Assembly (NCBI GenBank): GCA_018432315.1
Contig: JAHDLB010000025.1
Coordinates: 186,001-250,000, forward strand
Direction: 5' to 3'
Source: Anaerolineae bacterium
GTDB taxonomy: Bacteria > Chloroflexota > Anaerolineae > Aggregatilineales > Aggregatilineaceae
DNA: 64,000 nucleotides
Under the pieces are notes generated by a model. It did no database searches. It was not told the origin of the DNA and saw only the letters and a program-made list of their open reading frames with translations. The stretch's first letter is position 1, and each line of letters begins with the position of its first letter. Positions 17,919-46,145 of this stretch are shown here, one piece after another. Both the position numbers and the translations under genes were made by a program.

Positions 17919-19580
17919 ATGAGCGCCGTATCGACGTCCACGGACATTCGCTCTTTGCTGAAGTTGGCGCTGCCCATCGGCAGCCGGTTGATCACGGGAC
18001 ATCCCGATACGCCGGTGAATTGGGTCTGCAACCTCCGCACCCGCCCGCCCATCTTCGCGGACATCGAGGGCGGCGAGCTGGTGCTGCTGTCCACCGCCAC
18101 GCTGAGCAATTACCAGAAGCCGCTCACGCTCGAAACCGTGATCGAGGAACTGACCCAGACGCGGGCGAGCGCGCTGGCCGTGCGCGGCACGCTGATGCCC
18201 CGCGCCCACCAGATCGCCAAGGCAGCGAACTTCCCGGTGATCGTGCTGCCGGATCGCGCCGTGCTGCCCCAGGTCGAGCGGGCCGTCCAGCGCCTGCTGA
18301 CCAACCACCAGGCCCAGCTCGCCCACCGCGCGTTCGAGCTGCAGCAGACGCTCCAGCGCCACGCGGCCAGCCATCGCGGGCTGACGACCATGCTCAACGC
18401 GCTGGCGCGGATGCTCGATCGCCCGGTCGTGATTCACGACCGCGCCGGCGAGGTGCTCAGCCGGGGCCTGCCCGCCTCGCACGGGCACGACTGGGATTCG
18501 CATCTGGCGCTGGTGGGCGGCGCGGAGTTCGTGCGGCGCTTCGACATCGATGGCCGCGCCTTCTTCGAAGACGACTGGCAGATCATCGAAAGCCCGGCGG
18601 GCATCACCGCCCCGCTGATTCACGAGCGCCAGTTGCTGGGCTACGTCTCGATCCTCAGCGCGGGCGACGCGCCCGACCGGTTTGACCTGCTGGCGCTGGA
18701 GCACAGCGCGCCGGTCTTCGTGCGCGAGATGGTCCACCAGCAGACGACCACCCTCACCCACGAGAGTGCGCCCCCGGTGCGCGACTGGCTGACCGACTGG
18801 CTGCACGGCACCGGTAGCGACGACGCGCTGCTGGCCCTGCGCGCCGAAAAGGAATGCTACCAGGTGGACGCGTGGCACGCCGTCGTGCTGTTCCATTGGC
18901 TGCCGTCCAACGACCGCGCCGCGGGCACCTTCTCGCCGGAGCGCATGGTCAGCCTGATCCAGGCCGAGATCCACCAGCGGCGGATTCAGGCGCCCGTCGG
19001 GCAGTACGTCGACCGCGCCGTGATGCTGTTCCCGCTCGACGAGCCGCAGCAAACGCAGCGCCTCAAGCAGATCGTGGACCTGCTGCACGACACGCTGACC
19101 GCCGCCATCCCGGACGGCGAGATCACCGCCGGAGTCGGGCGCCCGGTCAAGGGGCTGACCGCCCTGCGCGACTCGTTCCAGGAAGCCGAGCGCGCGCTGA
19201 CGCTCTCCGAACAACTGTGGAACGAATCACAGGTGGCTTTCTTCGGCGACCTGAGCCTGTACGAGCTGCTGCTGGGCGTGAGCGATCCGGGGACGCTCGC
19301 CAGCTTCTGCGATCACTGGCTGTCGCCGCTGGCGAAATACGACGAGCGCCACCAGACCGACCTGCTGCCCACGCTGAGCGCCTACTTCGCCAACAACGGC
19401 AACATGGCGCGCACGGCTCACGTGCTCAACATCCACCGCAACACGCTGGTCTACCGGATGGCGCGCATCACCGAGATCATCCAGCTCGACATGGACGACT
19501 CCAACGTGCGGCTGAACCTGCACCTGGCGCTCAAAGTCCAGCGCATGCTGGACGCGTCGGGCGGCGATCCGGTGCAGTAA
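17919..19580 (+). CDS. PucR/CdaR-family transcriptional regulator
   Basis: 553 residues. The N-terminal PucR ligand-type domain is visible as VNWVCNLRTRPPIFADIEGGE and RASALAVRGTLMPRAHQIAKAANFPVIVLPD. A GAF-like middle (MLDRPVVIHDRAGEVLSR) follows. The C-terminus holds LLPTLSAYFANNGNMARTAHVLNIHRNTLVYRMARI, the HTH_30 helix-turn-helix of this family. PucR of Bacillus controls purine catabolism. A purine or nucleoside signal would fit the nucleoside locus some 6-20 kb away, but no site links them. GGGGGAGGA is a strong ribosome site. The palindrome upstream suggests autoregulation. Confidence 0.88.
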   Translation: MSAVSTSTDIRSLLKLALPIGSRLITGHPDTPVNWVCNLRTRPPIFADIEGGELVLLSTATLSNYQKPLTLETVIEELTQTRASALAVRGTLMPRAHQIAKAANFPVIVLPDRAVLPQVERAVQRLLTNHQAQLAHRAFELQQTLQRHAASHRGLTTMLNALARMLDRPVVIHDRAGEVLSRGLPASHGHDWDSHLALVGGAEFVRRFDIDGRAFFEDDWQIIESPAGITAPLIHERQLLGYVSILSAGDAPDRFDLLALEHSAPVFVREMVHQQTTTLTHESAPPVRDWLTDWLHGTGSDDALLALRAEKECYQVDAWHAVVLFHWLPSNDRAAGTFSPERMVSLIQAEIHQRRIQAPVGQYVDRAVMLFPLDEPQQTQRLKQIVDLLHDTLTAAIPDGEITAGVGRPVKGLTALRDSFQEAERALTLSEQLWNESQVAFFGDLSLYELLLGVSDPGTLASFCDHWLSPLAKYDERHQTDLLPTLSAYFANNGNMARTAHVLNIHRNTLVYRMARITEIIQLDMDDSNVRLNLHLALKVQRMLDASGGDPVQ

Positions 19581-22733: not shown

Positions 22734-23654
22734 TCAGGCGCTCAGGATCGTCGCCCGGCCCGCCAGCCATGCGCGGCGCCGCTCGCGCTCGGCGGGCCGC
22801 ACCGTCGACGGATCGAGCACGCCGGTAACCTCGATCGTGAATGAGGCCGACACCCCGCCGCAGCAGGCCGCGGCCAGCAGGTCACCGCCCGCCGCCAGCC
22901 AACCGGCCAGAAAACCGCCGCAGTACGCGTTCCCCGCCCCGGTCTGATCCACGAGCTGCGCGACCGGGATCGCGGGCAGGCGGATCAGGCCCGGCTGGTC
23001 CGCGCCGCCCAGCAGCGAGCCGTCGGCGCCCAGCCGCAGCGCCACGACGCGCGCGCCGTCGTCGAGCATGGCCCGCACCAGGTCCGCCGGGTCGTCCAGG
23101 CCGTAGACCAGCCCCGCTTCGAGGCTGTTCGGCGATACGACGTCCACCAGCGGCAGCGCGGCGCGAAACTGGGGCAGGCGGCCCTCGACCATGAACTGCT
23201 GGGTCGGCTCCCACAGGATCGCCGCATCTGGGAAACGCGCGCGCCAGCCCGCCACGTCGTCCGCCGGGCGCAGCAGGTGCAGCCCGCGCGCCGCCTCGTA
23301 AGCCGCCGGAATCTGCCCCGGCGGGGGATCGTCCAGGAACGGATCGAGCACGTCCACACGAAAAATCTCCGTCCGGCGCCCATCCCACTCGAAGACCTGC
23401 CACGCCCGCGCCTGGGGCGCGTCGAGCGCGATCACGCCCTGCACGTCGAAGTCGCGCGCCAGCCGCGTGCGGATCGAGCCGGGCAGGTCGCGGCCCACGT
23501 AGGCCACGATGCCCGGTCGCTCGCCCCAGACCGCCACCCCGGCGGCGGCGTGCGTGACGCCCCCGCCCAGCACGCCCATGTGCGTCACGCCGTCGGGCAG
23601 CACGATGTCGTCGATGATGATGCTGTCGACGCAGACAATCGCCGGACAATCCAT
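22734..23654 (-). CDS. PfkB-family kinase with GAGN in place of GAGD
   Basis: 306 residues. GVLGGGVTHAAAGVAVWG is a variant of the N-terminal GG signature and AYVGRDLPG follows. The C-terminal PfkB signature reads DQTGAGNAYCGGFLAGW: the catalytic-base Asp of DTxGAGD is replaced by Asn. It is closest by eye to the PfkB gene at 25365-26294, which carries the same change and shares IVDDIVxPDGxTxMGVLGGG. It is encoded 12 bp after the SIS gene, so a joint sugar-phosphate role is likely. Either this is a branch with altered chemistry or a binding protein. Fungal Mak32-like proteins are the comparison I would test. Confidence 0.8.
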   Translation of the reverse strand: MDCPAIVCVDSIIIDDIVLPDGVTHMGVLGGGVTHAAAGVAVWGERPGIVAYVGRDLPGSIRTRLARDFDVQGVIALDAPQARAWQVFEWDGRRTEIFRVDVLDPFLDDPPPGQIPAAYEAARGLHLLRPADDVAGWRARFPDAAILWEPTQQFMVEGRLPQFRAALPLVDVVSPNSLEAGLVYGLDDPADLVRAMLDDGARVVALRLGADGSLLGGADQPGLIRLPAIPVAQLVDQTGAGNAYCGGFLAGWLAAGGDLLAAACCGGVSASFTIEVTGVLDPSTVRPAERERRRAWLAGRATILSA

Positions 23655-23666
23655 CGCGCCCCCGCC

Positions 23667-24824
23667 CTACCGGCGCACGGTGTCGAGCAGGTGGCTGTCG
23701 CGGATGCGGCTGGCGCCGTCGGCCCAGTCCACCGTCCGCCCGCCGCCGAAGCCCTGGAAATACGTCGCGCCCATCGCGGCGGCGCGCTCGGCGGCCAGCA
23801 GCTCGCCGGGGATGCTGTACACCAGCGGGGCGAAACACTCGCGCACGTCGCCCTTCACCGGCAGGACGTGTTCCACGTACTGGCTGATCGCCGTCTCGCC
23901 GTCCGGCAGCACGCCGATCACCCGCCGCCCGATGCTCTGCGCCGCGCGGGCGACTTCGGCCATGCGGTCGGCGTCGTAATCCGCCGCGCTGATCAGGACG
24001 GTGGGCGTGTCGGCGCGGCGCCCGAAGTACTGCAAATGCGCCCATTCCTCGGTTTCCTGGGCCATCGCCGGGTCGCCGCTGGCCTCCAACATCTTGGCCG
24101 CGCTGAACATCGCCACGCCGTACAGCGGCCCGGCGCCGACGTACACGAATTCGGGGATGTCGTCCCAGCGCTGCATCAGGTCGTGCGCCACCGGCTCGCA
24201 GGCCCGGATGGTCGCGTCCAGCACGTCGGCCAGGCCGAGCAGCTCGCCGCGCAGGGCGTCGGCTTGCGCCGTGGTCAGGTGCCCGCGCACCTCGCCGATC
24301 CGGACCGCCGCGCTGTACAGCGCCATCTGCGACGCCAGATACGACCGCACGCCGGGCACCACCATGCCCGCCATCTCGTCCGGCAGCGGCGGGACCGTCG
24401 TCTGAAAGACCTTCCCGGCGGACTGGGCCAGCGGCGCGTCGGGCGCGCCGGTCAGGGCCACGCCCACCGCCCCGGCCTGGCGCGCCAGCCGCAGCGCCTC
24501 GATCGTCCGGCTGACCACGCCCGACACCGACACGGCGATCACGAGGTTGGTCTGCGGGCCGGTCGGCGGCAGGTGCCCCACCACGTAGCGGCTGAAGGTC
24601 AGCGCGCTGACCGCCTGGGTGGGCACGTTCGCCAGTTGGTGAAACGCCAGTTCTGCGCCCACCGGCGCGTGATAGCTGTCGCCGCAGCCGACGAGGTAGA
24701 TCCGTTTGACGGACGTGCACAGCTCGAAGTCGAAGGTGGCGCGGGCCGACTCGTCGAAGGGCCGGGCAATCGCGCGGACCAGTTCGGGCAGGGTATCGAT
24801 CTGTTGGTGCATGGGAGAACGCAT
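23667..24824 (-). CDS. Double-SIS-domain sugar isomerase/deglycase-like protein
   Basis: 385 residues from the ATG at 24824, with AGGA 9 bp upstream; ATGs at 24833 and 24812 are alternatives. The first SIS domain reads IYLVGCGDSYHAPVGAELAF with VIAVSVSGVVSRTIEALRLA. The second reads FVYVGAGPLYGVAMFSAAKM followed by AMAQETEEWAHLQYF, the Glu/His region of GlmS-, AgaS- and FrlB-type enzymes. No glutaminase domain is present. With an adjacent PfkB kinase, a fructosamine (FrlB/FrlD-like) or amino-sugar route is possible; this is inference. It starts a three-gene leftward operon. Confidence 0.8.
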   Translation of the reverse strand: MRSPMHQQIDTLPELVRAIARPFDESARATFDFELCTSVKRIYLVGCGDSYHAPVGAELAFHQLANVPTQAVSALTFSRYVVGHLPPTGPQTNLVIAVSVSGVVSRTIEALRLARQAGAVGVALTGAPDAPLAQSAGKVFQTTVPPLPDEMAGMVVPGVRSYLASQMALYSAAVRIGEVRGHLTTAQADALRGELLGLADVLDATIRACEPVAHDLMQRWDDIPEFVYVGAGPLYGVAMFSAAKMLEASGDPAMAQETEEWAHLQYFGRRADTPTVLISAADYDADRMAEVARAAQSIGRRVIGVLPDGETAISQYVEHVLPVKGDVRECFAPLVYSIPGELLAAERAAAMGATYFQGFGGGRTVDWADGASRIRDSHLLDTVRR

Positions 24825-24947
24825 TTTCGTCATTCCTGTTGGTACGCTGCCGACCACGCTTCGCGGTGGGCAAGGCTCAAGCACAATCACACAGCGGGCG
24901 GCGCAGCCAATTGGCAGGGCTTCACGGGTCGATCCTCACATCTCACT

Positions 24948-24975
24948 TTGTTTCCGCCCGGTGTACCGGTATCAT
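24948..24975 (+). promoter_or_regulatory. Sigma70-type promoter for the DsrE-like gene
   Basis: TTGTTT (24948-24953), a 16-bp spacer and TATCAT (24970-24975), 36 bp before ATG 25012. Confidence 0.6.
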
Positions 24976-25011
24976 ACACGCGATATTTGGCGGATCAAAG
25001 AGTATGGGACG

Positions 25012-25368
25012 ATGCCAGCGATTTCCGAACACCGCAACACCGTTATTCTCGTCACCAACGATGGCATGGGAAAATCCGATCCCGAACTCCAGCACATCCT
25101 GGCGGCGAAGTACTTCCAACTGCTGCTCGAAGACGGCAAACTGCCCGCCGCAATCTGCTTCTACGCCGACGGCGTCAGGCTGGTCTGCGACGGCTCGCCC
25201 GTCCTCGAACCGCTGCGCGCCCTGGGCGAGAAGGGCGTCTTTCTGGTCGTGTGCGGCACCTGCCTGAACCATCTCGGCCTGGCCGACCGGCAGCGCGTCG
25301 GGCTGGTGGGCGGCATGGCCGACATCATCGAGGCCCAGTGGCGCGCCGACAAGGTGATCACGATCTAG
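25012..25368 (+). CDS. DsrE-family protein resembling the C-terminal domain of YedF
   Basis: 118 residues. TVILVTNDGMGKSDPELQHI, AICFYADGVRLVCDGSPVLE, and FLVVCGTCLNHLGLADRQRVG match the DsrE half of selenium-metabolism YedF proteins (GxGDxELG, SEVLE, CGTCL). The TusA half is missing. The CGTC Cys pair could carry persulfide or selenium. It is alone on the plus strand between leftward gene blocks and its stop overlaps the stop of the next PfkB gene by 4 bp. Confidence 0.75.
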   Translation: MPAISEHRNTVILVTNDGMGKSDPELQHILAAKYFQLLLEDGKLPAAICFYADGVRLVCDGSPVLEPLRALGEKGVFLVVCGTCLNHLGLADRQRVGLVGGMADIIEAQWRADKVITI

Positions 25369-26294
25369 CCCAGCGACAGCGCGACCATCCCGCGCCGGGC
25401 TTCGTCCACGCGGCGCGCGTAATCGTCTCGATCCGGGAGCGCGGCGGGCAGCCCCACCTGCTCGATCAGGTACGACGCGGCAGCGCTCGCGTGGCAGGCG
25501 GCCTCTTCCAGCCCGGCATCCCACCGCGCGACGAGCGCCCCGCAGAACGCGTTCCCCGCGCCGACGGGATCGGCCACCGTCGCCTGCACCGCGGGCACGC
25601 GCACGCCCCGCCCCTCGGCCAGATTCCACACATCCGCCCCGCGCGAGCCGCGCCGCAGCGCCAACACCCGGCAGCCTAGCGCGCCGAACCGGGCCACCAT
25701 CTCGCGCTCGTCCTCCGTGCGGACCAGCCGGGCCGCTTCGTACCAGTTGGGCGAGAAGATCTCGCACGCCTTCAAGATGGCGCGCAGCTCGCCGTCGCTC
25801 AGTGGCCGGTCCGGCGGCTTGAACGGCTCCAGGCTCACCCACCGCCCGCCCGCCAACAGGCTGGCGGCAAACGTCAGGCTCGGGCCGGGATCGTCGGGAT
25901 GGATGCCCCAGTGGAAAGTCTGCGCGGCGTGATAGACGGGGGGCAGGGCGTCCCAATTGCGCGCCAACTGCACGCCGAGCGTCGGCAGCGGCACGCGCCA
26001 GACCTGCGTGCGCCGCCCGTCGAACTCGGTGATCTGCCAGGCGCGGGGCGTGGGGTGTTTGGTCTGGCGCACGCCGCCCAGGTCGATCCCCGCCGCGCGC
26101 AGCGGCGCGAGCGTTTCCGGTGGCAGATCGTCGCCGACGCCCGCCACCAGCCCGACGGACTCACCCCCGCCCAGCGCGGCAGCCATGCCCCAGGCCGTCT
26201 GGGGGCCGCCGCCGCCGAGCACCCCCATGCGCGTGGCGCCGTCCGGAAACACGATGTCATCGACGATGATGCCAAACGCCACATGCCGGATCAC
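25365..26294 (-). CDS. PfkB-family kinase with GAGN in place of GAGD (paralogue)
   Basis: 309 residues from GTG 26294, with GGGAG 8 bp upstream. IIVDDIVFPDGATRMGVLGGG matches the PfkB protein at 22734-23654. The C-terminal signature is ADPVGAGNAFCGALVARW, again with Asn instead of the catalytic Asp. It is the last gene of the leftward nucleoside operon, 14 bp after the next kinase. The likely substrate class is a ribose-type sugar or nucleoside, if it is active at all. The two GAGN proteins are more similar to each other than to the two GAGD kinases of the same region. Confidence 0.8.
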   Translation of the reverse strand: MIRHVAFGIIVDDIVFPDGATRMGVLGGGGPQTAWGMAAALGGGESVGLVAGVGDDLPPETLAPLRAAGIDLGGVRQTKHPTPRAWQITEFDGRRTQVWRVPLPTLGVQLARNWDALPPVYHAAQTFHWGIHPDDPGPSLTFAASLLAGGRWVSLEPFKPPDRPLSDGELRAILKACEIFSPNWYEAARLVRTEDEREMVARFGALGCRVLALRRGSRGADVWNLAEGRGVRVPAVQATVADPVGAGNAFCGALVARWDAGLEEAACHASAAASYLIEQVGLPAALPDRDDYARRVDEARRGMVALSLG

Positions 26295-26307: not shown

Positions 26308-27207
26308 TCAGGGCCGCGCCAGCCGCAGCTCGACCTCGTCGCGAGTCGGCAGACCGCCGCGCGCGCCCCGGTGTTCGACCTTGATCGCCGCCGCCGCGCT
26401 GGCGAACGCCATCGCTTCCGGCAGGTCAGCGCCGCCCAGCCGGGCCGCGATCAGGGCTGCGTGATAGCAGTCGCCCGCGCCGGTCGTGTCGACCGCTACC
26501 GCCGGGTGGGCCTTCTGGCTGACCGGCTTGCGCATCCCGCCGGCGATGCCGCTGGAGCCGCGCTTGCCGTCCGTCAGGATCACCCACTGCCGGGGCTGCA
26601 CCAGCCGCTCGATCGACGAGACGCCGAGCATCGCCAGGCTGTCTTTCGTCACGAATACGACATCGGCCACCGCCACCGCCTCGCGGAGCTGGTCGCCGCG
26701 CAGGGGCACCGACGGCTCGACGTCCAGCGCCAGCTCCCCGCCGGACTCGATCGTGGCGCGGCGAAGCTGGGTGCACCACACCGGGTCGCGCGGGTACGTG
26801 TAGACCACGCGCGCCTGCCGCGCCAGCGCCACCTGCTCGTAGGTGAGCGGCGCGTCGTAGATCGGCCACTGCGGGATCACGATCGCCCGCCCCCCGCGCG
26901 CGTCGGTCATCACCAGCGTGAAGGGCGTCATCTCGCCGGGCAGGCGTATCACCCCCTCCGGCTCGACGCGCCAATCGATGAAATCCTCGATCAGCATCGC
27001 GCCGTCGGCATCGTCGCCCACCCAGCCGATGAAGCTCGCGCGCAGCCCCAGCCGGGCCGCGGCGCAGGTCGCGTTGGCGATGAAGCCGCCCGGCAGTTTT
27101 TCGACCGGCTGGGCCGGGTATTTGTCGTCGTTCAGCGGCAGGCGGTCCACCTGGAGCATCATGTCATACGCCAGGCCGCCCACCCCGATGAAATCGAACA
27201 GCGCCAT
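26308..27207 (-). CDS. PfkB-family ribokinase-like kinase
   Basis: 299 residues from ATG 27207, 8 bp after the nucleoside hydrolase stop; the longer open frame upstream lies antisense-free over that hydrolase and is non-coding. PGGFIANATCAAARLGLRA is the sugar-binding Gly motif, IGWVGDDADG follows, and VDTTGAGDCYHAALIAARLG is the intact DTxGAGD signature with the catalytic Asp. ATP-dependent phosphorylation of ribose released by the adjacent nucleoside hydrolases is the simplest role. A nucleoside kinase is the alternative. Confidence 0.85.
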   Translation of the reverse strand: MALFDFIGVGGLAYDMMLQVDRLPLNDDKYPAQPVEKLPGGFIANATCAAARLGLRASFIGWVGDDADGAMLIEDFIDWRVEPEGVIRLPGEMTPFTLVMTDARGGRAIVIPQWPIYDAPLTYEQVALARQARVVYTYPRDPVWCTQLRRATIESGGELALDVEPSVPLRGDQLREAVAVADVVFVTKDSLAMLGVSSIERLVQPRQWVILTDGKRGSSGIAGGMRKPVSQKAHPAVAVDTTGAGDCYHAALIAARLGGADLPEAMAFASAAAAIKVEHRGARGGLPTRDEVELRLARP

Positions 27208-27215
27208 GAGTCCGG

Positions 27216-28190
27216 TTACACCTGCATCGTCTTGTACAGCAGTTCTTTCCAGCGCCGCGCGTCGATCTCCCAGCAGACGGTGATGTGCGGCTCGCCGCGC
27301 GCCACCACCGGCGCCCACATCGCGACGTTGGCCGTGTCGTAGGGCGTCACGCCGCACTGATCGACGACCGTCATGCCGCGTGTGTAGGTCCCGTCGCACT
27401 CCACCTCGACGAAATGCTTGCTGTGGCGCGTGCAGATCGTGGGGTCGATCGCAATCGCCATCGCCACCGGGTCCGGCAGGCCAAGCCCCGGATCGCCCAG
27501 CCAGTTGCGGCTGGTCTCCAGCGCGGAGATGTTGCAGTCCACCGCGAAATGCGACAGCGGCGTATCGATCACCTCTTTGCAGTGGCGCATGTCGTCGTCG
27601 GTGAGATTCGCCTCGCCCCGGCACAGCTCCCAGCCGACCATCTCGATCGGCAGGCCGGAGCGGAAGCACACCCGCGCCGCTTCCGGGTCGCACCAGATAT
27701 TATACTCGGCGGCGGGCGTGATGTTGCCGACCACGTTGGCGGCACCGCCCATCACCACGCAGCGCGACACGTTCTCGACGATCTCCGGCGCCTGGCTGAC
27801 GGCCAGCGCGACGTTCGTCATCGGGCCGAGCGTGACCAGCATGATCCCCGGGTTGGCCTTGATCGTGTCGATCAGCACCTCCACGGCGTGGCCTTCGGCG
27901 GGCGGCGTCTTGGCCTGGTAGTTCATCCCGCCCATGCCGTCCGGCCCGTGGAAGAAATACGCGCGGTAGATCTCGCGGATCAGCGGCTTGTCCGCGCCGT
28001 GATAGACCGGCACGTCCTTGCCGCACAGCTCGACCGTGTAGCGGGCGTTGATGCTGCCCTGCTCGACCGGCATATTCCCGGCCACGATCGTGATCGCCTT
28101 GACCTCGATATCGGGCGTTTGCAGCGCCATCATGATCGCGACGGCGTCGTCCGAGGCGGTGTCGGTGTCGATAATCATCTTTCGAGTCAT
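27216..28190 (-). CDS. Nucleoside hydrolase (IunH/RihB-like) 1
   Basis: 324 residues. The N-terminal calcium motif is MIIDTDTASDDAVA (Asp8, Asp10, Asp14, Asp15). VTLGPMTNVALAV and VVMGGAANVVGNITPAAEYN with the Asn/Glu ligands follow, then CDPEAARVCF and an active-site His region near FAVDC. It hydrolyses N-glycosidic bonds of (deoxy)ribonucleosides to base plus ribose in the cytoplasm. GAGGAGAA gives a good ribosome site. It is followed after 45 bp (upstream side) by a second copy in the same operon, which suggests different base preference. Confidence 0.92.
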   Translation of the reverse strand: MTRKMIIDTDTASDDAVAIMMALQTPDIEVKAITIVAGNMPVEQGSINARYTVELCGKDVPVYHGADKPLIREIYRAYFFHGPDGMGGMNYQAKTPPAEGHAVEVLIDTIKANPGIMLVTLGPMTNVALAVSQAPEIVENVSRCVVMGGAANVVGNITPAAEYNIWCDPEAARVCFRSGLPIEMVGWELCRGEANLTDDDMRHCKEVIDTPLSHFAVDCNISALETSRNWLGDPGLGLPDPVAMAIAIDPTICTRHSKHFVEVECDGTYTRGMTVVDQCGVTPYDTANVAMWAPVVARGEPHITVCWEIDARRWKELLYKTMQV

Positions 28191-28235: not shown

Positions 28236-29174
28236 TCAGGTCAGCCGGTTGAGTTCCATCTCCAGCAGGCGGTCGGCATCCACGCCGACGCACACGCTCA
28301 CCAACGGGCGGCCCTGCCAGGGCGGCAGCGGGCGCTCGCCGTTGTCGGGCCACGTCTTGCCGCGGCTGATGCCCTGCGTCTCGACGCGCACCGGCCAGCG
28401 CTGCGCGGTGAACAGCGACGGATCGATGGCGCAGGCCACCGCCGACGAATCGTGCACGTAGATGCCCTGGATGCCGTAGCTCTGCTCGAAATAGGCGCGG
28501 TAGTGCGGCACGATCCGGCTGATGTGCTGTGCCAGCGGGTCGTCCGATTGGTCATAGCGGTCCAGGTGGGCGGGCGTCATGTTGACGCGGTGCGTCACGT
28601 CGAGCCCGACCATCGTCACCGGCCATTCCGCGCCCAGCACGACGTCCGCCGCCTCCGGATCGTTGTGGATGTTCGCCTCGGCGGCGGGCGTGGCGTTGCC
28701 GGGACACAGGGCGTTGCCGCCCATCAGCACGACCTGCCGGACGTTGACGGCGATGCGCGGCTCCAGCCGCAGCGCCAGCGCCAGATTCGTCAGCGGGCCC
28801 AGCGGCACGAGTGTGATCTCGCCGGGCGCGGCCATCACCTGCTCGATGATGAACGCCGCCGCCGACTGGTCGACCGCGCGGCCCGCCGGGGGCGGCAGGT
28901 GGACGTTGCCCTGCCCATCGTCGCCGTGCACGAACGCGACGCCGCCCGCAAACGGCCCGGTCAGCGGGTGATCCGCGCCTTTGGCGACGGGGATGTCCAT
29001 CCGCCCCGCGATCTCCAGCAGGCGCAGCGCGTTGGTCGTCGCCAGGTCGGTGTCGACGTTGCCGAAAATAGTGGTCAGACCGATCACGTCCAGCTCCGGC
29101 GAGCGGAGGGCGAAGAAGATCGCCATCGTGTCGTCCACACCGGGATCGGTGTCGATGATGATTTTTTGCGCCAT
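28236..29174 (-). CDS. Nucleoside hydrolase (IunH-like) 2
   Basis: 312 residues. IIIDTDPGVDDTMAIFFAL is the canonical DTDPGxDD motif. LVPLGPLTNLALAL, VVLMGGNALCPGNATPAAEAN and HNDPEAADVVLG follow, and VHDSSAVACAIDP carries the C-terminal Asp. This is closer to the classical inosine-uridine type than its neighbour, which has DTDTASDD. The two share an operon with psuG, so their products (ribose and bases) and that of PsuG (ribose 5-phosphate and uracil) would arise together. Confidence 0.93.
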   Translation of the reverse strand: MAQKIIIDTDPGVDDTMAIFFALRSPELDVIGLTTIFGNVDTDLATTNALRLLEIAGRMDIPVAKGADHPLTGPFAGGVAFVHGDDGQGNVHLPPPAGRAVDQSAAAFIIEQVMAAPGEITLVPLGPLTNLALALRLEPRIAVNVRQVVLMGGNALCPGNATPAAEANIHNDPEAADVVLGAEWPVTMVGLDVTHRVNMTPAHLDRYDQSDDPLAQHISRIVPHYRAYFEQSYGIQGIYVHDSSAVACAIDPSLFTAQRWPVRVETQGISRGKTWPDNGERPLPPWQGRPLVSVCVGVDADRLLEMELNRLT

Positions 29175-29183
29175 CGAACCCCC

Positions 29184-30095
29184 TTATGCCTGCCCCATCG
29201 CTTTGGCGATGCGCGCCCCGATGCGAGCGTTGTTGACCAGCGCGGCGATGTTGGCCGTCTGCGAGCGCCCGCCGGTCAGCTCCAGCACTTTCGCCAGCAC
29301 GAACGGCGTGACCGCCTTGCCGTGAATCCCGGCGGCATCGGCCTGGCGCGTCGCCTCGGCGATGGCCGCTTCCGCTTCCTCGACCGGCAGCGCATCGGCT
29401 TCCGGCACGGGCACCGCCACCAGCGTTCCGTGCGCCAGCCCCAACTGGTCGCGGGCCGCCACGATGGCCGCCACCTGCTGCGGCGTATCGACGCGCTGGT
29501 CGACCGGCAGCCCGCTCGAACGGCTGTAGAACGCGGGCAGCGTGTCGCTCTCGTAGCCGAGCACGGGCACGCCCTGCGTCTCCAATACCTCAAGCGTCAG
29601 CGGCAGGTCGAGGATCGACTTGGCCCCGGCACACACCACCGTGATCGGCGTGCGGCCCAGCTCGATCAGGTCCGCCGAGATGTCTTCGGGGTGGCCCCGG
29701 TGCACGCCGCCGATCCCGCCCGTGGCGAAGACCTTGATCCCGGCCATGTGCGCCACAATCATCGTCCCGGCGACGGTCGTCGCGCCGTGCTGGCGCAGCC
29801 CGACCACGATCGGCAGGTCGCGCCGCGAGCACTTGCGCACGCTGTCCTGGCCCAGCCCGGCCAGCATCTCGATCTCGTCCTGGCTCAGGCCGACCTTCAC
29901 CTGCCCGCCGATCACGGCAATCGTCGCCGGGATGGCGCCTTCCTCGCGGATGGCGGCCTCCATCGCCAGCGCCGTCTCGACGTTGGCCGGGTAGGGGAAG
30001 CCGTGCGTGATCAGCGTCGACTCCAGCGCCACGACCGGCGACCCGGCCAGGATCGCGGCGCTCACTTCGTCCGAAAGCAGCAAACTCGTGTTCAT
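29184..30095 (-). CDS. psuG: Pseudouridine-5'-phosphate glycosidase
   Basis: 303 residues. VVALESTLITHGFPYPAN is the family opening with Glu25, VRKCSRRDLPIVV holds Lys88, and NIAALVNNARIGARIA holds the C-terminal Asn. By position these match the catalytic Glu, Lys and Asn known for E. coli PsuG. GATTVAGTMIVAHMAGIKVF and ATGGIGGVHRG are strongly typical. It splits pseudouridine 5'-phosphate to uracil and ribose 5-phosphate. Its ATG overlaps the YjbQ stop (ATGA), and a PfkB kinase lies two genes upstream as the probable PsuK. Confidence 0.95.
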   Translation of the reverse strand: MNTSLLLSDEVSAAILAGSPVVALESTLITHGFPYPANVETALAMEAAIREEGAIPATIAVIGGQVKVGLSQDEIEMLAGLGQDSVRKCSRRDLPIVVGLRQHGATTVAGTMIVAHMAGIKVFATGGIGGVHRGHPEDISADLIELGRTPITVVCAGAKSILDLPLTLEVLETQGVPVLGYESDTLPAFYSRSSGLPVDQRVDTPQQVAAIVAARDQLGLAHGTLVAVPVPEADALPVEEAEAAIAEATRQADAAGIHGKAVTPFVLAKVLELTGGRSQTANIAALVNNARIGARIAKAMGQA

Positions 30096-30499
30096 CCGGC
30101 AATCACTTTCATCTGGACGTGCCGCTGGCGCGGCCCGTCGAACTCGTAGAATAAGATGCTCTGCGACCCGCCCAGCAGCAGGTCGCCGTTCTCCACGGCG
30201 AGCGTGATGCTGTGGCCGACGATCGCCGCCTTGATGTGCCCGGCAGCGTCGGCGGGCGTGTCGTACTGGTGCTTGAAATCCACGCGCGTCGGCACCAAGC
30301 GGCGCAGATCGTCGATGATGTCGTCCGGCGTGGTCGGGTCCAGCGACGAATTGATCGTCACGGCGGCGGTCGTGTGCGGCACAATCACCGCGCACAGCCC
30401 GGACCGGACCCCACTCGCGCGCACGGCGTCGCGCACCTGATCGGTGATGTTCACCAGCGCGTCGCCGGGCGGCGTCTGAATCGTTACCGTGCTCAACAT
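30092..30499 (-). CDS. YjbQ/UPF0047-family protein
   Basis: 135 residues. ITDQVRDAVRASGVRSGLCA, VIVPHTTAAVTINSSLDPTT, HIKAAIVGHSITLAVENGDL, LLGGSQSILFYEFDGPRQRH are the family signature blocks (the His in PHTTAAV and the GxWQ-like GGSQ). E. coli YjbQ shows weak thiamine-phosphate synthase activity; the true role is unsettled. Both ends overlap neighbours: 7 bp with the PfkB gene and 4 bp with psuG. Such tight coupling between a kinase and PsuG is unexpected for this family. Confidence 0.9.
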   Translation of the reverse strand: MLSTVTIQTPPGDALVNITDQVRDAVRASGVRSGLCAVIVPHTTAAVTINSSLDPTTPDDIIDDLRRLVPTRVDFKHQYDTPADAAGHIKAAIVGHSITLAVENGDLLLGGSQSILFYEFDGPRQRHVQMKVIAG

Positions 30500-31446
30500 G
30501 CGTAGTTTACCTCGTCTCCGGCCCCTTGCAGGATCGCCATCACGTCGGCGCAGGTAGGCGCGTTGCGCCCCGCCCCCGCGCGCCCGACCGCCGCCGCCCC
30601 CATCGCGTTCGCCAGCCGCCCGCAGTCCGCCAGCGGCAGCCCGCGCAGCAGGCCCGCCACGAACGCCGCGTCGAAGCAGTCGCCCGCCCCGGATGTATCG
30701 ACCACCCGGGCCGGATAGCCCGGCAGCGCGAGCGCGCCGTCGTGGGTGACGATCGTGCAGCCCGCCGGGCCGCGCTTGACGACCAGCTTCGCCGGGCCGC
30801 TCGCCAGCAGGTAGGCATACGCCGCCTCGCCGGTCCGGCCCTCGCTCACCAGCGGGACCTCGTCCTCGGTCATAAGCAGCAGCGCCGATCCTGCCACCAC
30901 GCGCCGGACGATCTCCGGCGGGACGTGCGCCAGGAATGGCCCCGCGTCGAGGAAGACGGGCGTGCCCGCCTCCGCCGCCCGGTCCAGCCCGCGCAGCGCC
31001 AGCGGCGTGATCCGCTCCTCGGCCAGCGTATAGCCTTGCAGGAACACCGCGTCCGCCCCGGCGATACAGGCGTCGAGCCCGGCGGGATAGGCCACCGGGG
31101 GACCGGCGCCGTAGTTGCCGACGAAGGTGTGCTCGCCGGATGCGCGGTCGGTCAGCGCGATCACCAGCGTGGACGACGACCCCGGCATGGCGACGACGAA
31201 CGCCGTATCCACGCCCTCGGAGCGCAGCCCGTCGAGGATTAGCGCGCCGAACGCGTCCTCGCCAATGGCCCCCGCCGCCGACACGTCCAGGCCCATGTGG
31301 CGCGCCGCGATCATGAAGTTGGCCGCGCCGCCCGGCTCGACGTGCCGCTCCGGGCTCGTCTGGTGGTGCCCCGGTAGGACCGGCAGCGTCACCGGCAGGA
31401 TGACGTCGAGCACCAGGTCGCCGATCGAAACGATATGCGGGGCCAT
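30493..31446 (-). CDS. PfkB-family kinase, candidate pseudouridine kinase
   Basis: 317 residues from ATG 31446, 2 bp after the glycohydrolase stop. HVEPGGAANFMIAARHMGLD is the sugar-binding motif, AGAIGEDAFG follows, and VVDTSGAGDCFDAAFVAGLL is an intact DTxGAGD signature. A kinase two genes from psuG is most simply PsuK (pseudouridine to pseudouridine 5'-phosphate), but ribokinase cannot be excluded. It overlaps yjbQ by 7 bp, so kinase, YjbQ and PsuG should be made together. Confidence 0.85.
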   Translation of the reverse strand: MAPHIVSIGDLVLDVILPVTLPVLPGHHQTSPERHVEPGGAANFMIAARHMGLDVSAAGAIGEDAFGALILDGLRSEGVDTAFVVAMPGSSSTLVIALTDRASGEHTFVGNYGAGPPVAYPAGLDACIAGADAVFLQGYTLAEERITPLALRGLDRAAEAGTPVFLDAGPFLAHVPPEIVRRVVAGSALLLMTEDEVPLVSEGRTGEAAYAYLLASGPAKLVVKRGPAGCTIVTHDGALALPGYPARVVDTSGAGDCFDAAFVAGLLRGLPLADCGRLANAMGAAAVGRAGAGRNAPTCADVMAILQGAGDEVNYAC

Positions 31447-31448
31447 CG

Positions 31449-32453
31449 TCAGCCTGCCCGTTCGATCAGCCCCAGCAGTCCATCCGCGATCTGGGGGACG
31501 TGGTACGCCGCGAAAACCTCGTCGGCATCCAACCGGCGCGTGATCGCCGGATCGATGGCGGCCATGCCCTTGAACGCGCCCGCCACCGCGCAGGCAATCG
31601 CGCCGACGGTGTCCGCGTCGCCGGACAGGTTGGCCGCGTAGATCGCGGTCTGGCGCGGATCGCCATCCGCCATCGCCAGCACGCCAAACGCCGCGCCGAC
31701 CGTCTCCGGCACCGAGAGCGACGTGCCGATCTCGTCGTAGATCCGGCGCAGGCGGACCATGTCGTCGCCGCCACCCCGCGCGATGTCCACCGCCATCTGA
31801 ATCCGGCGCGCCACGGACGGCCCGAGCCACGTCCGGCCCTTCGACCGGCCCAGCTCCGCGCCCATGATCCCCGCCGCGATCACGCTGTCGAGCGTGGCGC
31901 CGTCCACCACCGCCACCGCGATCGCCGCGGCGACCGCGCACGCGCCGGAGATGGCGACGTTGGTGTTGTGGGTGGGCATGGACGCGATCTCGGCGTCGGC
32001 GACCGCGCCCAGCGGGTCGCCGGGATGCAGCAGGCCCACCGGCGAGACGCGCATCGGCGCGCCGTTGGTGTCGCCCCAGGTGCCGGTCGTGCGCGGGTCT
32101 TCGCCGCGCTTCAGCGCCTGGACGCCGCGCCGCGTGCTCGGCCCCACGTAGGGCGAGGTTTCGCCGCCAACGCGGTCGTACCACGTGATGATCGCCTCGA
32201 CGCTGGCCTCCAGCGTGACGCCGCCGTGCTCGATGAACGCCCGCGCCAGCGAGAACGCCTGCTCCGAATCGTCGGTGATGCGCCCCGCGGGCAGCCCGTG
32301 ATGGACCGGGTGATCCGCCGGGCCGGGCAGAAAGTCCGTGATCCAGCCGCCGTAAGCCTCCCACGTCTGGTCCGGGTCGAAATAGGCGGGCATTCCCCAG
32401 GCATCGCCCAGCGCCTGGCCGTACAGTCCGCCGAGAATCTTATCTTTCAACAA
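31449..32453 (-). CDS. ADP-ribosylglycohydrolase (DraG/ARH) family protein
   Basis: 334 residues from TTG 32453, chosen because AAGGGAG ends 8 bp upstream. The frame is open 25 codons further back, but that stretch runs into the terminator hairpin. GGLYGQALGDAWGMP, GRITDDSEQAFSLA (Mg-binding TDDS) and ANLSGDADTVGAIACAVAGA (GDxDTxG) are the family metal motifs. The family removes ADP-ribose from proteins or small molecules. Leading a nucleoside-catabolic operon, it may instead cleave ADP-ribose-like or nucleoside substrates. That is inference. It is first in the run continuing with PfkB, YjbQ and PsuG. Confidence 0.85.
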   Translation of the reverse strand: MLKDKILGGLYGQALGDAWGMPAYFDPDQTWEAYGGWITDFLPGPADHPVHHGLPAGRITDDSEQAFSLARAFIEHGGVTLEASVEAIITWYDRVGGETSPYVGPSTRRGVQALKRGEDPRTTGTWGDTNGAPMRVSPVGLLHPGDPLGAVADAEIASMPTHNTNVAISGACAVAAAIAVAVVDGATLDSVIAAGIMGAELGRSKGRTWLGPSVARRIQMAVDIARGGGDDMVRLRRIYDEIGTSLSVPETVGAAFGVLAMADGDPRQTAIYAANLSGDADTVGAIACAVAGAFKGMAAIDPAITRRLDADEVFAAYHVPQIADGLLGLIERAG

Positions 32454-32494
32454 CGCGATCGCTCCCTTACAGGTAAGACAAACAGGCACCAGCC

Positions 32495-32523
32495 GGAGGG
32501 GCGCCCGTTGAGGCACCCCCTCC
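32495..32523 (-). terminator. Terminator/attenuator hairpin between transporter and catabolic genes
   Basis: On the minus strand GGAGGGG-(G)-TGCC / GGCG-CCCCTCC with a 6-base loop, followed by GGCTGGTGCCTGTTTGTCTT. It lies 41 bp after the second permease and upstream of the TTG start of the glycohydrolase. Partial read-through would link the two gene sets. Confidence 0.55.
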
Positions 32524-32563
32524 GCCACATCTCAATTTCCGGCACAACCACGCCACCAGCCGC

Positions 32564-34003
32564 TCAGCCGGACGCCTCGCGCCGCTGGTGGCGCATCAGG
32601 TACTGGCCGCCCAGCGCCAGCCACAGCGCGATCCCGGCCACCAGCCCCAGGATGATCCCCAGGACGATCGACTGGTCCTTGAGCGACGTCGTGCGCAGGT
32701 ACAGGCCGAACAGCAGGCCCAGGTACAGCCACAGCGTCAGCGACGACGCGGCGGCGCTGGCGATCACCTGCCGCCCGATGCGCTCGACGTGAAGCATGAA
32801 CGGCAGGTTGATGCCGATCAGCGCCAGCGAGAAAGCGCCCACCGCCGCCCCGACCGGGTACGCCGTTTCGGGGCCATCGAACCCGTTCGGCGCGGCGAAC
32901 ATGCTCAGGCTGATGATCACACCGAACACGGCCAGCATCGCCAGGAACATGTGCAGCACGCTCAGCCGCTGGATCGCCTTCCAGAACACGGCGTCGAAGC
33001 CTTCGCCCTCCGCCGAGCGCAGCGTCCGCACGCGCGAGGTGAGCTGCGCTTGCAGCGCGTAGATCACCAGCGCCAGCACGGTCGCCAAAAACGGCAGCAT
33101 CTGCGGAAGCTGCGAAGGGATATTCAGCGAGCCGACCCGGTTCGAGAGCGCGTCGAAGAAGCCGAAGACGAGCGACGCGAACCCGGTCCCGACGGGATGC
33201 CCGCCGCCCAGGTACGGCGTCGCCAGGGCGATGAAGCCGCGCCCGGACGTCATATCGCGCTGGAAGAACGTGAGGTAGCCCATGCTCATGTGGATGCCGC
33301 CCAGTCCGGCGAAGACGCCGCTGATCACGAGCGCCAGGTACCGGATGCGCGTGACGCGGATGCCGACTGAGGCGGCGGCTTCGGGATTCTGGCCCACCGC
33401 GCGCAGGTGCGTGCCGGTCGGCGTGCGGTACATGAAGTACCACACCACCGCGATCGACAGGAACGCGATCCATGTCATCACGCTCTGGTTGTCGAAGATT
33501 CGGAAGAAGAACGAGATCACCGGAATGTCGCGCAGGAACTCCGGCAGTTGGATGAAGGGCATGCGCAGGCTCGCCAGGCTGCCTTTCGTGTTGCCGCGCT
33601 CGCCGGTCAGCTCGAACATGATCGCGATCGTCGCCGCCGAGCCGAGCACGTTGAGCGCGATGCCCGACAGGATCAGGTTGGCCTTCAGCTTGAGGTGGAA
33701 AAACGCCAGCAGCAGGGCCATCAGGATCGCCATCAATACGCCCATCACCATGCCCAGCCAGGGGCCGATGTCCGCGCCGGTCGACGCGCCGAACCAGTCC
33801 TGCGCGTAGGCGCTGAAGACCACGCCCGTGAAGGCCGACACCAGCATGGTGCCTTCCAGGCCGATGTTGATCACCCCGGCCCGATCAGAGATCAGCGCGC
33901 CCAGCGACGGCAGCAGAATCGGCGTCGTCACGCGGAGAATCGAGGCCAGAAAAGCCGAGCTGAAGATTCCCTGAAGGACGCTCTCGAACAGCGTGTTATC
34001 CAT
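32564..34003 (-). CDS. BMP-type nucleoside ABC transporter permease 2, with C-terminal membrane extension
   Basis: 479 residues against a usual 300-330. The conserved core is VTTPILLPSLGALISDRAGVI (family start), INIGLEGTMLVSAFTGVV, HLRAVGQNPEAAASVGIRVT (the EAA-like cytoplasmic loop) and FAGLGGIHMSMGYL. After the core, at about residue 330, comes TSRVRTLRSAEGEGFD and then four or five more hydrophobic segments (FLAMLAVFGVIISLSMFAA, GAFSLALIGINLPFML and others) not found in standard homologues. It overlaps permease 1 by 8 bp. Confidence 0.85.
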   Translation of the reverse strand: MDNTLFESVLQGIFSSAFLASILRVTTPILLPSLGALISDRAGVINIGLEGTMLVSAFTGVVFSAYAQDWFGASTGADIGPWLGMVMGVLMAILMALLLAFFHLKLKANLILSGIALNVLGSAATIAIMFELTGERGNTKGSLASLRMPFIQLPEFLRDIPVISFFFRIFDNQSVMTWIAFLSIAVVWYFMYRTPTGTHLRAVGQNPEAAASVGIRVTRIRYLALVISGVFAGLGGIHMSMGYLTFFQRDMTSGRGFIALATPYLGGGHPVGTGFASLVFGFFDALSNRVGSLNIPSQLPQMLPFLATVLALVIYALQAQLTSRVRTLRSAEGEGFDAVFWKAIQRLSVLHMFLAMLAVFGVIISLSMFAAPNGFDGPETAYPVGAAVGAFSLALIGINLPFMLHVERIGRQVIASAAASSLTLWLYLGLLFGLYLRTTSLKDQSIVLGIILGLVAGIALWLALGGQYLMRHQRREASG

Positions 34004-36116
34004 GTGCGACCTCCTGCGCGCTGGCCGTCAGGCCACCTGCTTCACCGCTGCCGTCGTCCAGTTCAATGGTCCCCCGGCGCGTGATGCGGCGCTGGCGGAA
34101 GAACGCGACCAGGGCATCCGCCGTGATCAGCAGGATGACGACCGCCTGGATAATACGAACCACTTCGGAGCTGACGTTGGCGTCGCGCTCCATCACCTGC
34201 GCGCCGGTGCGCAGATAGGCGTACAACAGGCCGGTGAACGGCACCACCAGCGGGTTGTTGCGCGCCAGCAGCGCCACGACGACGCCTTCGAAGCCCAGCC
34301 CCAACGAGATGTTGAGGATCAGGCGGCGGTGAATGCCCATCGCCAGGTGCGCCCCGGCCAGCCCGGCCACCGCCCCGCTGATCGCCATCGCCAGCATGAT
34401 CGTGCGCTTGCTGTTGACGCCGCCGAAGTTGGCGAACTTGATGTTCGCGCCGATCATGCGAATCTCGTACCCCAGCGGCGTGCGCTGGATGAGCACCCAG
34501 GTGATCAACACCAGGATGATCAGCAGGTAGACGGCAATAGTCACCTGGTCGCCCGCCACGTCGATGATCGGCGTCAGCAGGCCGTTCGACGCGAACCAGT
34601 CCGACGTGGTAAACCCGGCGTCGGGCGGCTGGAGCTGCTCGGTGATGACCATCTCGTAAAACCGCGCCGCGACGGTGTTGAGCATCAGGGTCGAAACCAG
34701 CTCGTTCGCGCCCAGGTAAGCTTTCAGCACGCCGGGCACCAGCCCCCACAAGAACCCCGCCGTCGCCGCCGACAGCAGCGCCACCGGCACCAGCAGGATC
34801 TTGGGCAAATCGCCGAACGCCAGGACCAGCGCCCCCGCCGCCAGCGCGCCAAAGTAAAGCTGGCCGTCCGCGCCCAGGCTGAACTGCTCGGCGCGGAACA
34901 CGATCGCAATCGCCAGCCCCAGCATGATGAGCGTCAGCGCGTCGCGCATCCAGATCACCCAGCGGTTCTGGCGGCTCAGCGGCCCCAGCAGGAACGTCTC
35001 GTAGGCGTCCGCCGTCTGCGAGACGGTCTCGCTGATGCGCATCGAGGTTGTCAGCGGCTCGGGCTGCGTCCGCACGGTGTAGATGCCGCTGGCGGGCAGG
35101 GTGAAGCCCTCGATGATCGCGTCGCGCTCGCTGTTGAGGTTGGGCCGGTACGCCGCGACCTGTTCGGCGGTCGAGCCGGTGCTCTCGGCCAGCACGGCGC
35201 CATCCGGCCCCACCAGCGCCACTTCAAGATCGACCGCGACGTTCGAGCGGGCCGCGTACGACAGCACGCTGATCACGTCGCCCCGGCTGCCCGCGAAGCG
35301 GTACGCGGCCTCGGTGATCGGATCGCTGGCGTTGGGCGCGTTGAACGTCGCGCCGACCGGGGCGTTATATGCCATGTCGACCGGCGACTCGCCGCCCTCC
35401 GACACGACGACGACCGTCGCCTCGCCGCGCGCGTCGGAGTCGGGATTCTCCATGCGCGCCACGACCGAGTACGTCCCATCGGCGGGCAGCACGAAGCTCT
35501 CGATCACCGCGTCGTTTTCCGTCTTCAGATAGCGCCGGAAGGTGCGAAGCTGTTCCTCGGTGGCGCCGGACGCTTCGGCCAGCACCTCGTCGTTGGCATC
35601 CAGCAGGGCCACCGCCATATCCAGGTCGGCGTTGCGGTCCTCGACGTAGGCCAGCACGGCGATCTCGTCGCCTTCGCGGCCCACGAACTGGTACGACACT
35701 TCCTTGACCGGCTCGTCGACGTTCGGATTGTTGAACAACTCGGTCATCCGGTCGCCATAGCCCATGTCGATCAACGGCTCGGCGTCGCTCACCACCTGGA
35801 CCCGGAACTCGCCCTGAACGTATTTGTTCGCCGCGTCGAGGAAGAAGACCGCCGTCACGAGGCCGCCCAGCAGCAGGGCGAAGATCACGGTCAGGATCAC
35901 GCGCAGCGCATCCCAGCGCAGCTCGACCACGAACAGCAGCACGCAGAAGCCGATCAGCGCGTTGACGATGATCAGGCTCACATAGTTGGGCGCGTTGGTC
36001 ATGGTTTCCCACGAGCCGCCGAACACCCGGTAGGTGATGAAGAACATCACCCCCAGCCCAATCAACACGCTGAATGCGATCAGCGGGAGATGCCGGGAAA
36101 AGTGTCTCTGGTTCAT
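33996..36116 (-). CDS. BMP-type nucleoside ABC transporter permease 1 with inserted tandem beta-sandwich domain
   Basis: 706 residues, about twice the usual size. Three membrane helices lie within residues 10-95. Residues about 95-385 are a hydrophilic, presumably extracytoplasmic block of two 130-residue repeats (117-246 and 247-376): EVSYQFVGREGDEIAVLAY matches EAAYRFAGSRGDVISVLSY, and DAVIESFVLPADGTYSV matches DAIIEGFTLPASGIYTV. These resemble pre-peptidase C-terminal-like sandwiches. The normal permease core follows: LGADGQLYFGALAAG, LGANELVSTLMLN, IRMIGANIKFANFGGV. The stop overlaps permease 2 and the start overlaps the ATPase (4 bp). Confidence 0.87.
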   Translation of the reverse strand: MNQRHFSRHLPLIAFSVLIGLGVMFFITYRVFGGSWETMTNAPNYVSLIIVNALIGFCVLLFVVELRWDALRVILTVIFALLLGGLVTAVFFLDAANKYVQGEFRVQVVSDAEPLIDMGYGDRMTELFNNPNVDEPVKEVSYQFVGREGDEIAVLAYVEDRNADLDMAVALLDANDEVLAEASGATEEQLRTFRRYLKTENDAVIESFVLPADGTYSVVARMENPDSDARGEATVVVVSEGGESPVDMAYNAPVGATFNAPNASDPITEAAYRFAGSRGDVISVLSYAARSNVAVDLEVALVGPDGAVLAESTGSTAEQVAAYRPNLNSERDAIIEGFTLPASGIYTVRTQPEPLTTSMRISETVSQTADAYETFLLGPLSRQNRWVIWMRDALTLIMLGLAIAIVFRAEQFSLGADGQLYFGALAAGALVLAFGDLPKILLVPVALLSAATAGFLWGLVPGVLKAYLGANELVSTLMLNTVAARFYEMVITEQLQPPDAGFTTSDWFASNGLLTPIIDVAGDQVTIAVYLLIILVLITWVLIQRTPLGYEIRMIGANIKFANFGGVNSKRTIMLAMAISGAVAGLAGAHLAMGIHRRLILNISLGLGFEGVVVALLARNNPLVVPFTGLLYAYLRTGAQVMERDANVSSEVVRIIQAVVILLITADALVAFFRQRRITRRGTIELDDGSGEAGGLTASAQEVAHG

Positions 36117-37660
36117 TGGTAGCGCTCCATTTCCTCGGCAGGCTGGCGCTCGGCCCCCAGCATGTACAACCCTAACTGCTGCTCGGTGAGGTCCGGCGTG
36201 TTGGGGAAGATGGCGACGATCTCGCCGTTGTACATCACCATGATCCGGTCCGAGAGCTTCATCACCTCCTGGAGATCAGCCGAGATGAGCAAGATCGCCA
36301 GCCCGTTGGTGCGCTGGTCGACAAGTTGCTGGTGAATGTACTCGATCGCGCCGATGTCCACGCCGCGCGTGGGCTGGGCCGCGATCAGCAGGCGCGGGTC
36401 CGCCGACAGCTCGCGGGCCACGACCACCTTTTGCATGTTGCCGCCGGACAGCGATCCGACCGGCAGGTCGGCGCTGGGGGCGAGGATGTCGAACTGCTGG
36501 ACCAGCGCCTGCCCGTTGTCGCGAATCGCCGCCAGGTCGAGCAGGCCCATGCGAGTGAAGGGCGGGCGATAATAGCGGTCGACGATCAGGTTGTCGCCGA
36601 TGGTCGCCATGACGGCGACGCCGTTCGTCAGGCGGTCTTCGGGGATGTGCGCCACGCGCGCCTCGCGCACCTTGCGCGGCCCGTGGCCCAGTACCGACAC
36701 GCCATCGACGTAGGCTTCGCCGCTGGTCGCCGCGCGCAGGCCGGTCAGCACTTCGGCCAGTTCGGTCTGCCCGTTGCCTTCCACCCCGGCGATGCCCAGG
36801 ATTTCCGATTCGTAAGCCGTGAAGGTCGCGTCGTGCAGCAGCGTGCGGCCCGTCTCGTTGATGAACGTCAGGTTGCGCGCTTCGAGGACGGGCTTGCCGC
36901 GCCGGACCGGCGGCTTTTCGACCTGCATGAAGACCTCGCGCCCGACCATCATCCGCGCCAGTTCGGCCTCGTTGGTCTCGGACGTGTTGACCGTCCCCAC
37001 CCGGCGGGCATCGCGCATGACGGTCACCCGGTCCGAGATCGCCATCACTTCGCGCAGCTTGTGCGTGATGAAGATCACGGTCTTGCCCTCGGACACCAGG
37101 TTGCGCACGGCTTTGAACAGGTCATCGGTTTCGCGCGGGGTGAGCACGGCGGTCGGCTCGTCCAGGATCAGGATCTCGGCGCCGCGATACAGCGCCTTGA
37201 GGATTTCGACCCGCTGGCGCATCCCGACCGGCACCGTGTCCACGCGCGCGTTCGGCTCGACGTACAGGCCGTACTGCTGCGAGAGCATTTCCGTGTCGCG
37301 AATGGCCGTCTGGCGGTTGATGGTGATGCCCTGGTGAATGGTCGGCTCGCGGCCCAGCACGATGTTCTCGGCCACGGTGAACGCGTCGACCAGCATGAAG
37401 TTCTGGTGCACCATGCCAATCCCCATGTCGATCGCCGCCTGCGGGCTGGCGATCGTCACGGGCTGGCCGCGCAGGTGAATTTCGCCGGACGTGGGATGCT
37501 CGAGTCCGTAGAGAATCTTCATGAGCGTGCTCTTGCCCGCCCCGTTCTCGCCGACCAGCGCGTGAATCTCGCCTGCCTCGACCGACAGGCTGACGTGATC
37601 GTTCGCCAGCACGCCGTTCGGATATATCTTAACAATATCGACTGCTTCGATAAGGGCCAT
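36113..37660 (-). CDS. BMP-type nucleoside ABC transporter duplex ATPase
   Basis: 515 residues from ATG 37660, with GGGGATT upstream. The first half has Walker A LVGENGAGKSTLMKILYG, a degenerate signature (VPVGMRQRVEILKAL) and Walker B EILILDEPTAVLTP. The second half has a degenerate Walker A, IAGVEGNGQTELAEVL, without Lys, LSGGNMQKVVVAREL, and LLIAAQPTRGVDIGA with Gln in place of the Walker B Glu. This asymmetric pattern is standard for the RbsA/NupA-like branch importing nucleosides. It energises the two permeases. A terminator-like hairpin separates it from the binding-protein gene. Confidence 0.93.
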   Translation of the reverse strand: MALIEAVDIVKIYPNGVLANDHVSLSVEAGEIHALVGENGAGKSTLMKILYGLEHPTSGEIHLRGQPVTIASPQAAIDMGIGMVHQNFMLVDAFTVAENIVLGREPTIHQGITINRQTAIRDTEMLSQQYGLYVEPNARVDTVPVGMRQRVEILKALYRGAEILILDEPTAVLTPRETDDLFKAVRNLVSEGKTVIFITHKLREVMAISDRVTVMRDARRVGTVNTSETNEAELARMMVGREVFMQVEKPPVRRGKPVLEARNLTFINETGRTLLHDATFTAYESEILGIAGVEGNGQTELAEVLTGLRAATSGEAYVDGVSVLGHGPRKVREARVAHIPEDRLTNGVAVMATIGDNLIVDRYYRPPFTRMGLLDLAAIRDNGQALVQQFDILAPSADLPVGSLSGGNMQKVVVARELSADPRLLIAAQPTRGVDIGAIEYIHQQLVDQRTNGLAILLISADLQEVMKLSDRIMVMYNGEIVAIFPNTPDLTEQQLGLYMLGAERQPAEEMERYQ

Positions 37661-37683
37661 AAAAAATCCCCCACACATGCCCG

Positions 37684-37715
37684 TAAAAATATGGGGCGAG
37701 CAGATGCTCACCCCA
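37684..37715 (-). terminator. Intra-operon terminator after the binding-protein gene
   Basis: On the minus strand TGGGG-T-GAGCA / TGCTC-G-CCCCA with a 2-base loop as drawn, followed by TATTTTTA. It lies 25 bp after the binding-protein stop and 24 bp before the ATPase start. Partial termination here would yield more binding protein than transporter. Confidence 0.8.
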
Positions 37716-37739
37716 GTCGTGCTGCCGACGACGCTCGAC

Positions 37740-38891: not shown

Positions 38892-38944
38892 TCTTTTTTC
38901 TCTCCTAACTACGGTGCTAAATTTGTTCCCCAAATGTATAGAGA

Positions 38945-39006: not shown

Positions 39007-39036
39007 TTGCTCACCCTCCGCGAAAAATGGTACACT
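39007..39036 (+). promoter_or_regulatory. Promoter for the divergent nucleoside hydrolase
   Basis: TTGCTC (39007-39012), an 18-bp spacer and TACACT (39031-39036). It supports GTG 39087 as start, with AAAGGTGA upstream. Confidence 0.55.
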
Positions 39037-39086
39037 GCCCGGCGTGCAAATCGGCTGTAGGCTGTCCCCAGAAAGGTGAAACGACC

Positions 39087-46131: not shown

Positions 46132-46145
46132 GATCGTATCCTCGC

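Follow-up and report, generated by a model that had tools for sequence, protein, structure and literature searches.

The catalytic aspartate of PfkB kinases, found in a GAGD motif, activates the hydroxyl of the sugar substrate, in agreement with the initial annotation of the DNA described here, which took this residue to be the usual catalytic base (PMC5405513). Exchange of this Asp for Asn in E. coli Pfk-2 abrogated activity and affected substrate binding only mildly (cited in PMC5405513), and the plant proteins FLN1 and FLN2, components of a plastid transcription complex, share the PfkB fold with no kinase activity detected (PMC5405513). The described enzymes closest to the proteins considered below are a nucleoside kinase of Chlorobaculum (Chlorobium) tepidum (PDB 3kd6), the pseudouridine kinases of Arabidopsis (PUKI, 7c1x-z) and E. 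coli (PsuK), and E. coli ribokinase (1rkd/1gqt). Fungal Mak32 is PfkB-like with possibly Asn at the catalytic site; its link to these proteins is a lead only, and the literature on Mak32 yielded nothing useful. For pyridoxal kinase D235N, the loss of activity is said to be only about one half; a search for mutant literature on this variant and on ribokinase or adenosine kinase found none.

Set against these systems is the window, the whole stretch of 64,000 nucleotides analysed here, in which two PfkB-fold proteins (A and B) read GAGN in place of GAGD and sit in what is, judged by its family matches, a gene cluster for nucleoside breakdown in a Chloroflexota bacterium:

17919 to 19580, forward strand: PucR-type regulator (purine catabolism regulator family; family search), the probable regulator of the locus
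22734 to 23654, reverse strand: protein A, PfkB fold with GAGN at the catalytic position, 306 aa (ORF, Pfam match, AlphaFold2 mean pLDDT 95.3, clade placement)
23667 to 24890, reverse strand: SIS-domain protein resembling the GlmS isomerase domain, next upstream of A (family searches)
25009 to 25368, forward strand: DsrE/YedF-like gene between the SIS gene and B, tail to tail with B (start estimated from translation)
25365 to 26294, reverse strand: protein B, PfkB fold with GAGN at the catalytic position, 309 aa (ORF, Pfam match, AlphaFold2 mean pLDDT 93.1, clade placement)
26308 to 27207, reverse strand: protein C, a PfkB protein with the canonical GAGD, next upstream of B (start estimated)
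27216 to 28190, reverse strand: nucleoside hydrolase NH1 (PF01156; family search)
28236 to 29174, reverse strand: nucleoside hydrolase NH2 (PF01156; family search)
29184 to 30140, reverse strand: PsuG-type pseudouridine-5'-phosphate glycosidase (PF04227; family search)
30092 to 30499, reverse strand: YjbQ / UPF0047 (family search)
30493 to 31440, reverse strand: protein D, canonical GAGD PfkB (start estimated)
31449 to 32528, reverse strand: ADP-ribosylglycohydrolase-family (ARH) protein (PF03747; family search)
32564 to 38933, reverse strand: nucleoside-type ABC importer with two permeases (the second named by eye), ATPase and Bmp/PnrA-like binding protein
39027 to 40016, forward strand: nucleoside hydrolase NH3 (PF01156; family search)

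Genome-wide family searches place three of the four nucleoside hydrolases, the only PsuG found in the genome and four of the 19 PfkB matches within this locus. The DsrE/YedF-like gene, which shares 4 bases with the end of B and belongs to a cluster of related ORFs from 7 loci, is in the locus but probably does not belong to the system. Elsewhere in the window, at 43324-47060 and near the nucleoside locus, lie frames that resemble xanthine dehydrogenase subunits by eye.

The initial annotation had set GAGN in A (DQTGAGNAYCGG) and B (DPVGAGNAFCGA) against GAGD in their neighbours C (DTTGAGDCYHAA) and D (DTSGAGDCFDAA), a difference that is borne out by the ORF translations, and the alignment of A with B (37-41% identity over most of the length) likewise contains the shared stretch DDIVxPDGxTxMGVLGGG that it had listed. 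Both proteins match PF00294 (A 68.9 bits, B 69.5 bits; Pfam curated cut-off 25.8), and neither reaches the curated cut-off of an NCBIfam equivalog (ribokinase, IolC, tagatose kinase and others), the best scores being 48.0 bits versus 300 for A (TIGR04382) and 50.9 versus 420 for B (NF049991). Pfam, NCBIfam and the inspected PDB sequence matches yielded no substrate-assigned family with GAGN, and A and B belong to a branch of PfkB sugar/nucleoside kinases that goes unnamed in the family libraries consulted. The NxxE metal-site motif is kept in A (SPNSLEA) and B (SPNWYEA) and degraded in some other GAGN members (loci L063, L080, L086 and L095).

The AlphaFold2 models of A and B, both confident, adopt a ribokinase-like fold, with Z of ~26-34 to many family structures. 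By VIA-align, nucleoside kinase 3kd6 came first for both, with 290 positions of A aligned at rmsd 2.5 (Z 33.6) and 287 of B at rmsd 2.6 (Z 31.7), and Arabidopsis pseudouridine kinase was next; Foldseek on its own ranked many ribokinases and nucleoside kinases nearly level for B. On these models 3kd6 (22% identity) is the closest fold match, and sharing a fold is no proof of function. It is also the best PDB sequence match of A, with the DD and GG motifs aligned, but it retains the canonical Asp (TGAGDTF) and has Asp and Lys where B has E156 and R214. The pseudouridine kinases, to which A and B are ~16-20% identical, differ in that their activity is established, whereas that of A and B is putative; PsuG often lies near GAGN genes (12/45 loci). 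In E. coli ribokinase, the counterparts of N183, E186 and GAG of B are N187, E190 and the glycine loop, whereas the Asp of AAGDTF is replaced by Asn248 in B, and Asn166/Thr223 by E156/R214.

Whilst the initial annotation was right about the conserved Asn and the usual role of Asp, it described a trait of two proteins that is in fact that of a whole clade. A scan of genome contigs with B recovered 16 loci, every one a Chloroflexota/Anaerolineae record, with Asn in 14 of the 15 B homologues reaching the motif and in all A homologues reaching it. A profile was then run against 396 genomes of the same class: 65 gave matches, and 40 stretches were fetched; because the family was gathered with a B profile, sampling is skewed toward B-like proteins. 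In the main PfkB-family tree (87 rows from related Chloroflexota genomes, the motif column taken out beforehand), GAGN proteins group as one clade of 62 rows with an SH-aLRT of 100, and the canonical Asp, present in every row outside the clade, is absent from A, B and 59 of the 62, the other three having Asp. Since these three Asp rows (L034, L046 and L047) form a single subclade nested inside the B group, the natural reading of the tree is one D-to-N change followed by one later reversion, with Asn dating from the origin of the branch. Redoing this quick-method tree on a reduced set of 52 rows by a careful method left the result unchanged (clade support 100/100, bootstrap/SH-aLRT; minimum two state changes). 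Asn and Asp are the only residues at the catalytic site across the clade, a pattern unlike the free drift of a dead residue. One clade member (L097:6627-7589) reads GGGN in place of GAGN. A tblastn search of plasmids returned only weak matches for B, two fetched loci (L118 and L119) reading GAGD, and none for A; viral contigs gave no matches. No spread outside Chloroflexota was seen in a sample that covers other phyla thinly, for A especially.

The Asn is accompanied by linked substitutions. Replacement of Asp with Glu at B156 and of Lys with Arg at B214 is found in 62/62 clade rows and in none of the 14 GAGD sequences that make up the sister comparison set; PDB relatives with alignments shown have Asp or Asn at the former position and Lys or Thr at the latter. 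Ser181 stands in place of Leu in ~92% of Asn rows, the first Asp of the DD motif is invariant among Asn members, and the glycine loop is retained. The Asp revertants retain the clade substitutions, including E156 and R214. Pairwise codon comparison gave a dN/dS of ~0.1-0.4, and the GAGN genes are under purifying selection; together with the clade-wide Asn, this upholds the earlier view of a conserved, inherited residue as opposed to the decay of one gene. No claim is made here that E156 is proven to replace the base: Glu occupies this position in protein C too, and since C pairs it with GAGD, Glu alone is no mark of a relocated base.

Gene neighbourhoods add a functional context. The order C-B-SIS-A recurs in related genomes, and tandem GAGD/GAGN neighbours, with C directly upstream of B, occur in the window and several related loci. 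NH, PsuG, YjbQ or ARH genes lie within 6 kb of the GAGN gene in 29 of 45 loci (several of the remainder end at a contig edge), SIS homologues within the same distance in 18, and C/D-type GAGD PfkB genes nearby in 20. No labelled PfkB gene resembling window C or D was found within 6 kb in 12 of the 29 loci, where the label reflects BLAST against window C and D and leaves GAGD sisters of the clade uncounted, one being present in L111; here a kinase gene may lie elsewhere or belong to a different PfkB type. PsuG directly adjoins the GAGN gene in L088, L090 and L098, and the reverted GAGD proteins lie in a PsuG-NH1-B gene order, the same neighbourhood type as the Asn forms.

Other arrangements were also observed. 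YjbQ (UPF0047) recurs beside GAGN genes in the window, L074, L075, L077, L087 and L097. In L059, L063, L064 and L111 a GAGN gene has a close GAGD relative as its neighbour, with overlapping open frames in L063. In L039 (669 aa) and L040 (735 aa), the open frames of GAGD relatives of the clade continue into a SIS domain, which suggests PfkB-SIS fusions. By eye, L092:1010-1828, next to the GAGD relative L092:29-1006, resembles a nucleoside phosphorylase, and a scan of 50 neighbours detected PNP_UDP_1 in 3.

A and B are paralogues within a single GAGN clade that arose from GAGD kinases near nucleoside kinases. The leading, if tentative, reading is that they are remodelled nucleoside- or ribose-directed phosphotransferases, still active, perhaps slowly, without the canonical base. 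Acting within a pathway of nucleoside import and breakdown, they would bind a nucleotide together with a substrate that contains ribose, be it a nucleoside, pseudouridine or ribose set free in the locus. Phosphoryl transfer would proceed with no Asp base, probably at a lower rate or towards a nucleophile that is more acidic. A working phosphotransferase is favoured, with modest confidence, because other active-site residues are strictly retained and the site alternates only between Asn and Asp, because the reversion sits in a nucleoside gene neighbourhood, and because solitary GAGN genes adjoin PsuG or NH. Evidence against activity comes from the inactivated Pfk-2 variant, from the candidate replacement base E156 not being exclusive to the clade, from the degraded NxxE of some GAGN members, and from the nearby C/D-type GAGD proteins (20/45 loci), which could do the phosphorylation. 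The broader proposition, that the clade as a whole carries out phosphoryl transfer in nucleoside salvage via a remodelled Glu/Arg/Asn site, with the natural Asn-to-Asp reversion as its internal control, is rather doubtful.

Nearly as likely as an active phosphotransferase is a non-catalytic role, and there is a real possibility that GAGN proteins bind nucleotide and nucleoside with no transfer of phosphate, either as heterodimer partners of adjacent GAGD kinases (C with B) or as ligand sensors. Such a role agrees with the tandem arrangement of C and B, with the close GAGD relatives beside GAGN genes in four loci and with the relaxed NxxE of some GAGN members. Precedents exist in the family: loss of the base abrogates Pfk-2, a model member, and FLN1 and FLN2 of Arabidopsis lack detected kinase activity (PMC5405513), whilst AtPUKI binds its substrate using Thr26' of the partner protomer (PMC9247573). 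A partner or sensor would, however, hardly lead one to expect active-site residues that are strictly kept and even newly fixed (E156 and R214, 62/62), a site confined to Asn or Asp, or the 12 loci with no labelled C/D-type PfkB nearby. Sequence alone does not separate an active enzyme from a non-catalytic partner.

It is unlikely that the clade instead performs a different chemistry, whether on a nucleophile that needs no base (e.g. an existing phosphate), with another phosphoryl donor, or in a non-kinase reaction. The coordinated fixation of D-to-N, D-to-E and K-to-R suggests altered active-site chemistry, and the superfamily also includes ThiD, with Cys at the Asp position and a phosphate as its acceptor, which counts in favour of such a change; yet the Asp revertants keep E156, R214 and the nucleoside neighbourhood. 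Decay, sequencing error or chance is barely credible as the source of the Asn, for although a single base change suffices to turn Asp into Asn, the residue is found in 59/62 members from many independent assemblies, in intact ORFs under purifying selection.

The Asp of GAGD counts as a signature of PfkB kinases, and in annotation kinase names are given by family. A conserved clade in which this Asp is missing, with linked substitutions and a natural revertant, would allow a direct test of whether the base is necessary in the superfamily, and cautions against calling such proteins kinases without an assay. The GAGN branch may embody altered chemistry or a non-catalytic partner role, and points to an unassigned step or regulator in the breakdown of nucleosides and pseudouridine by Chloroflexota.
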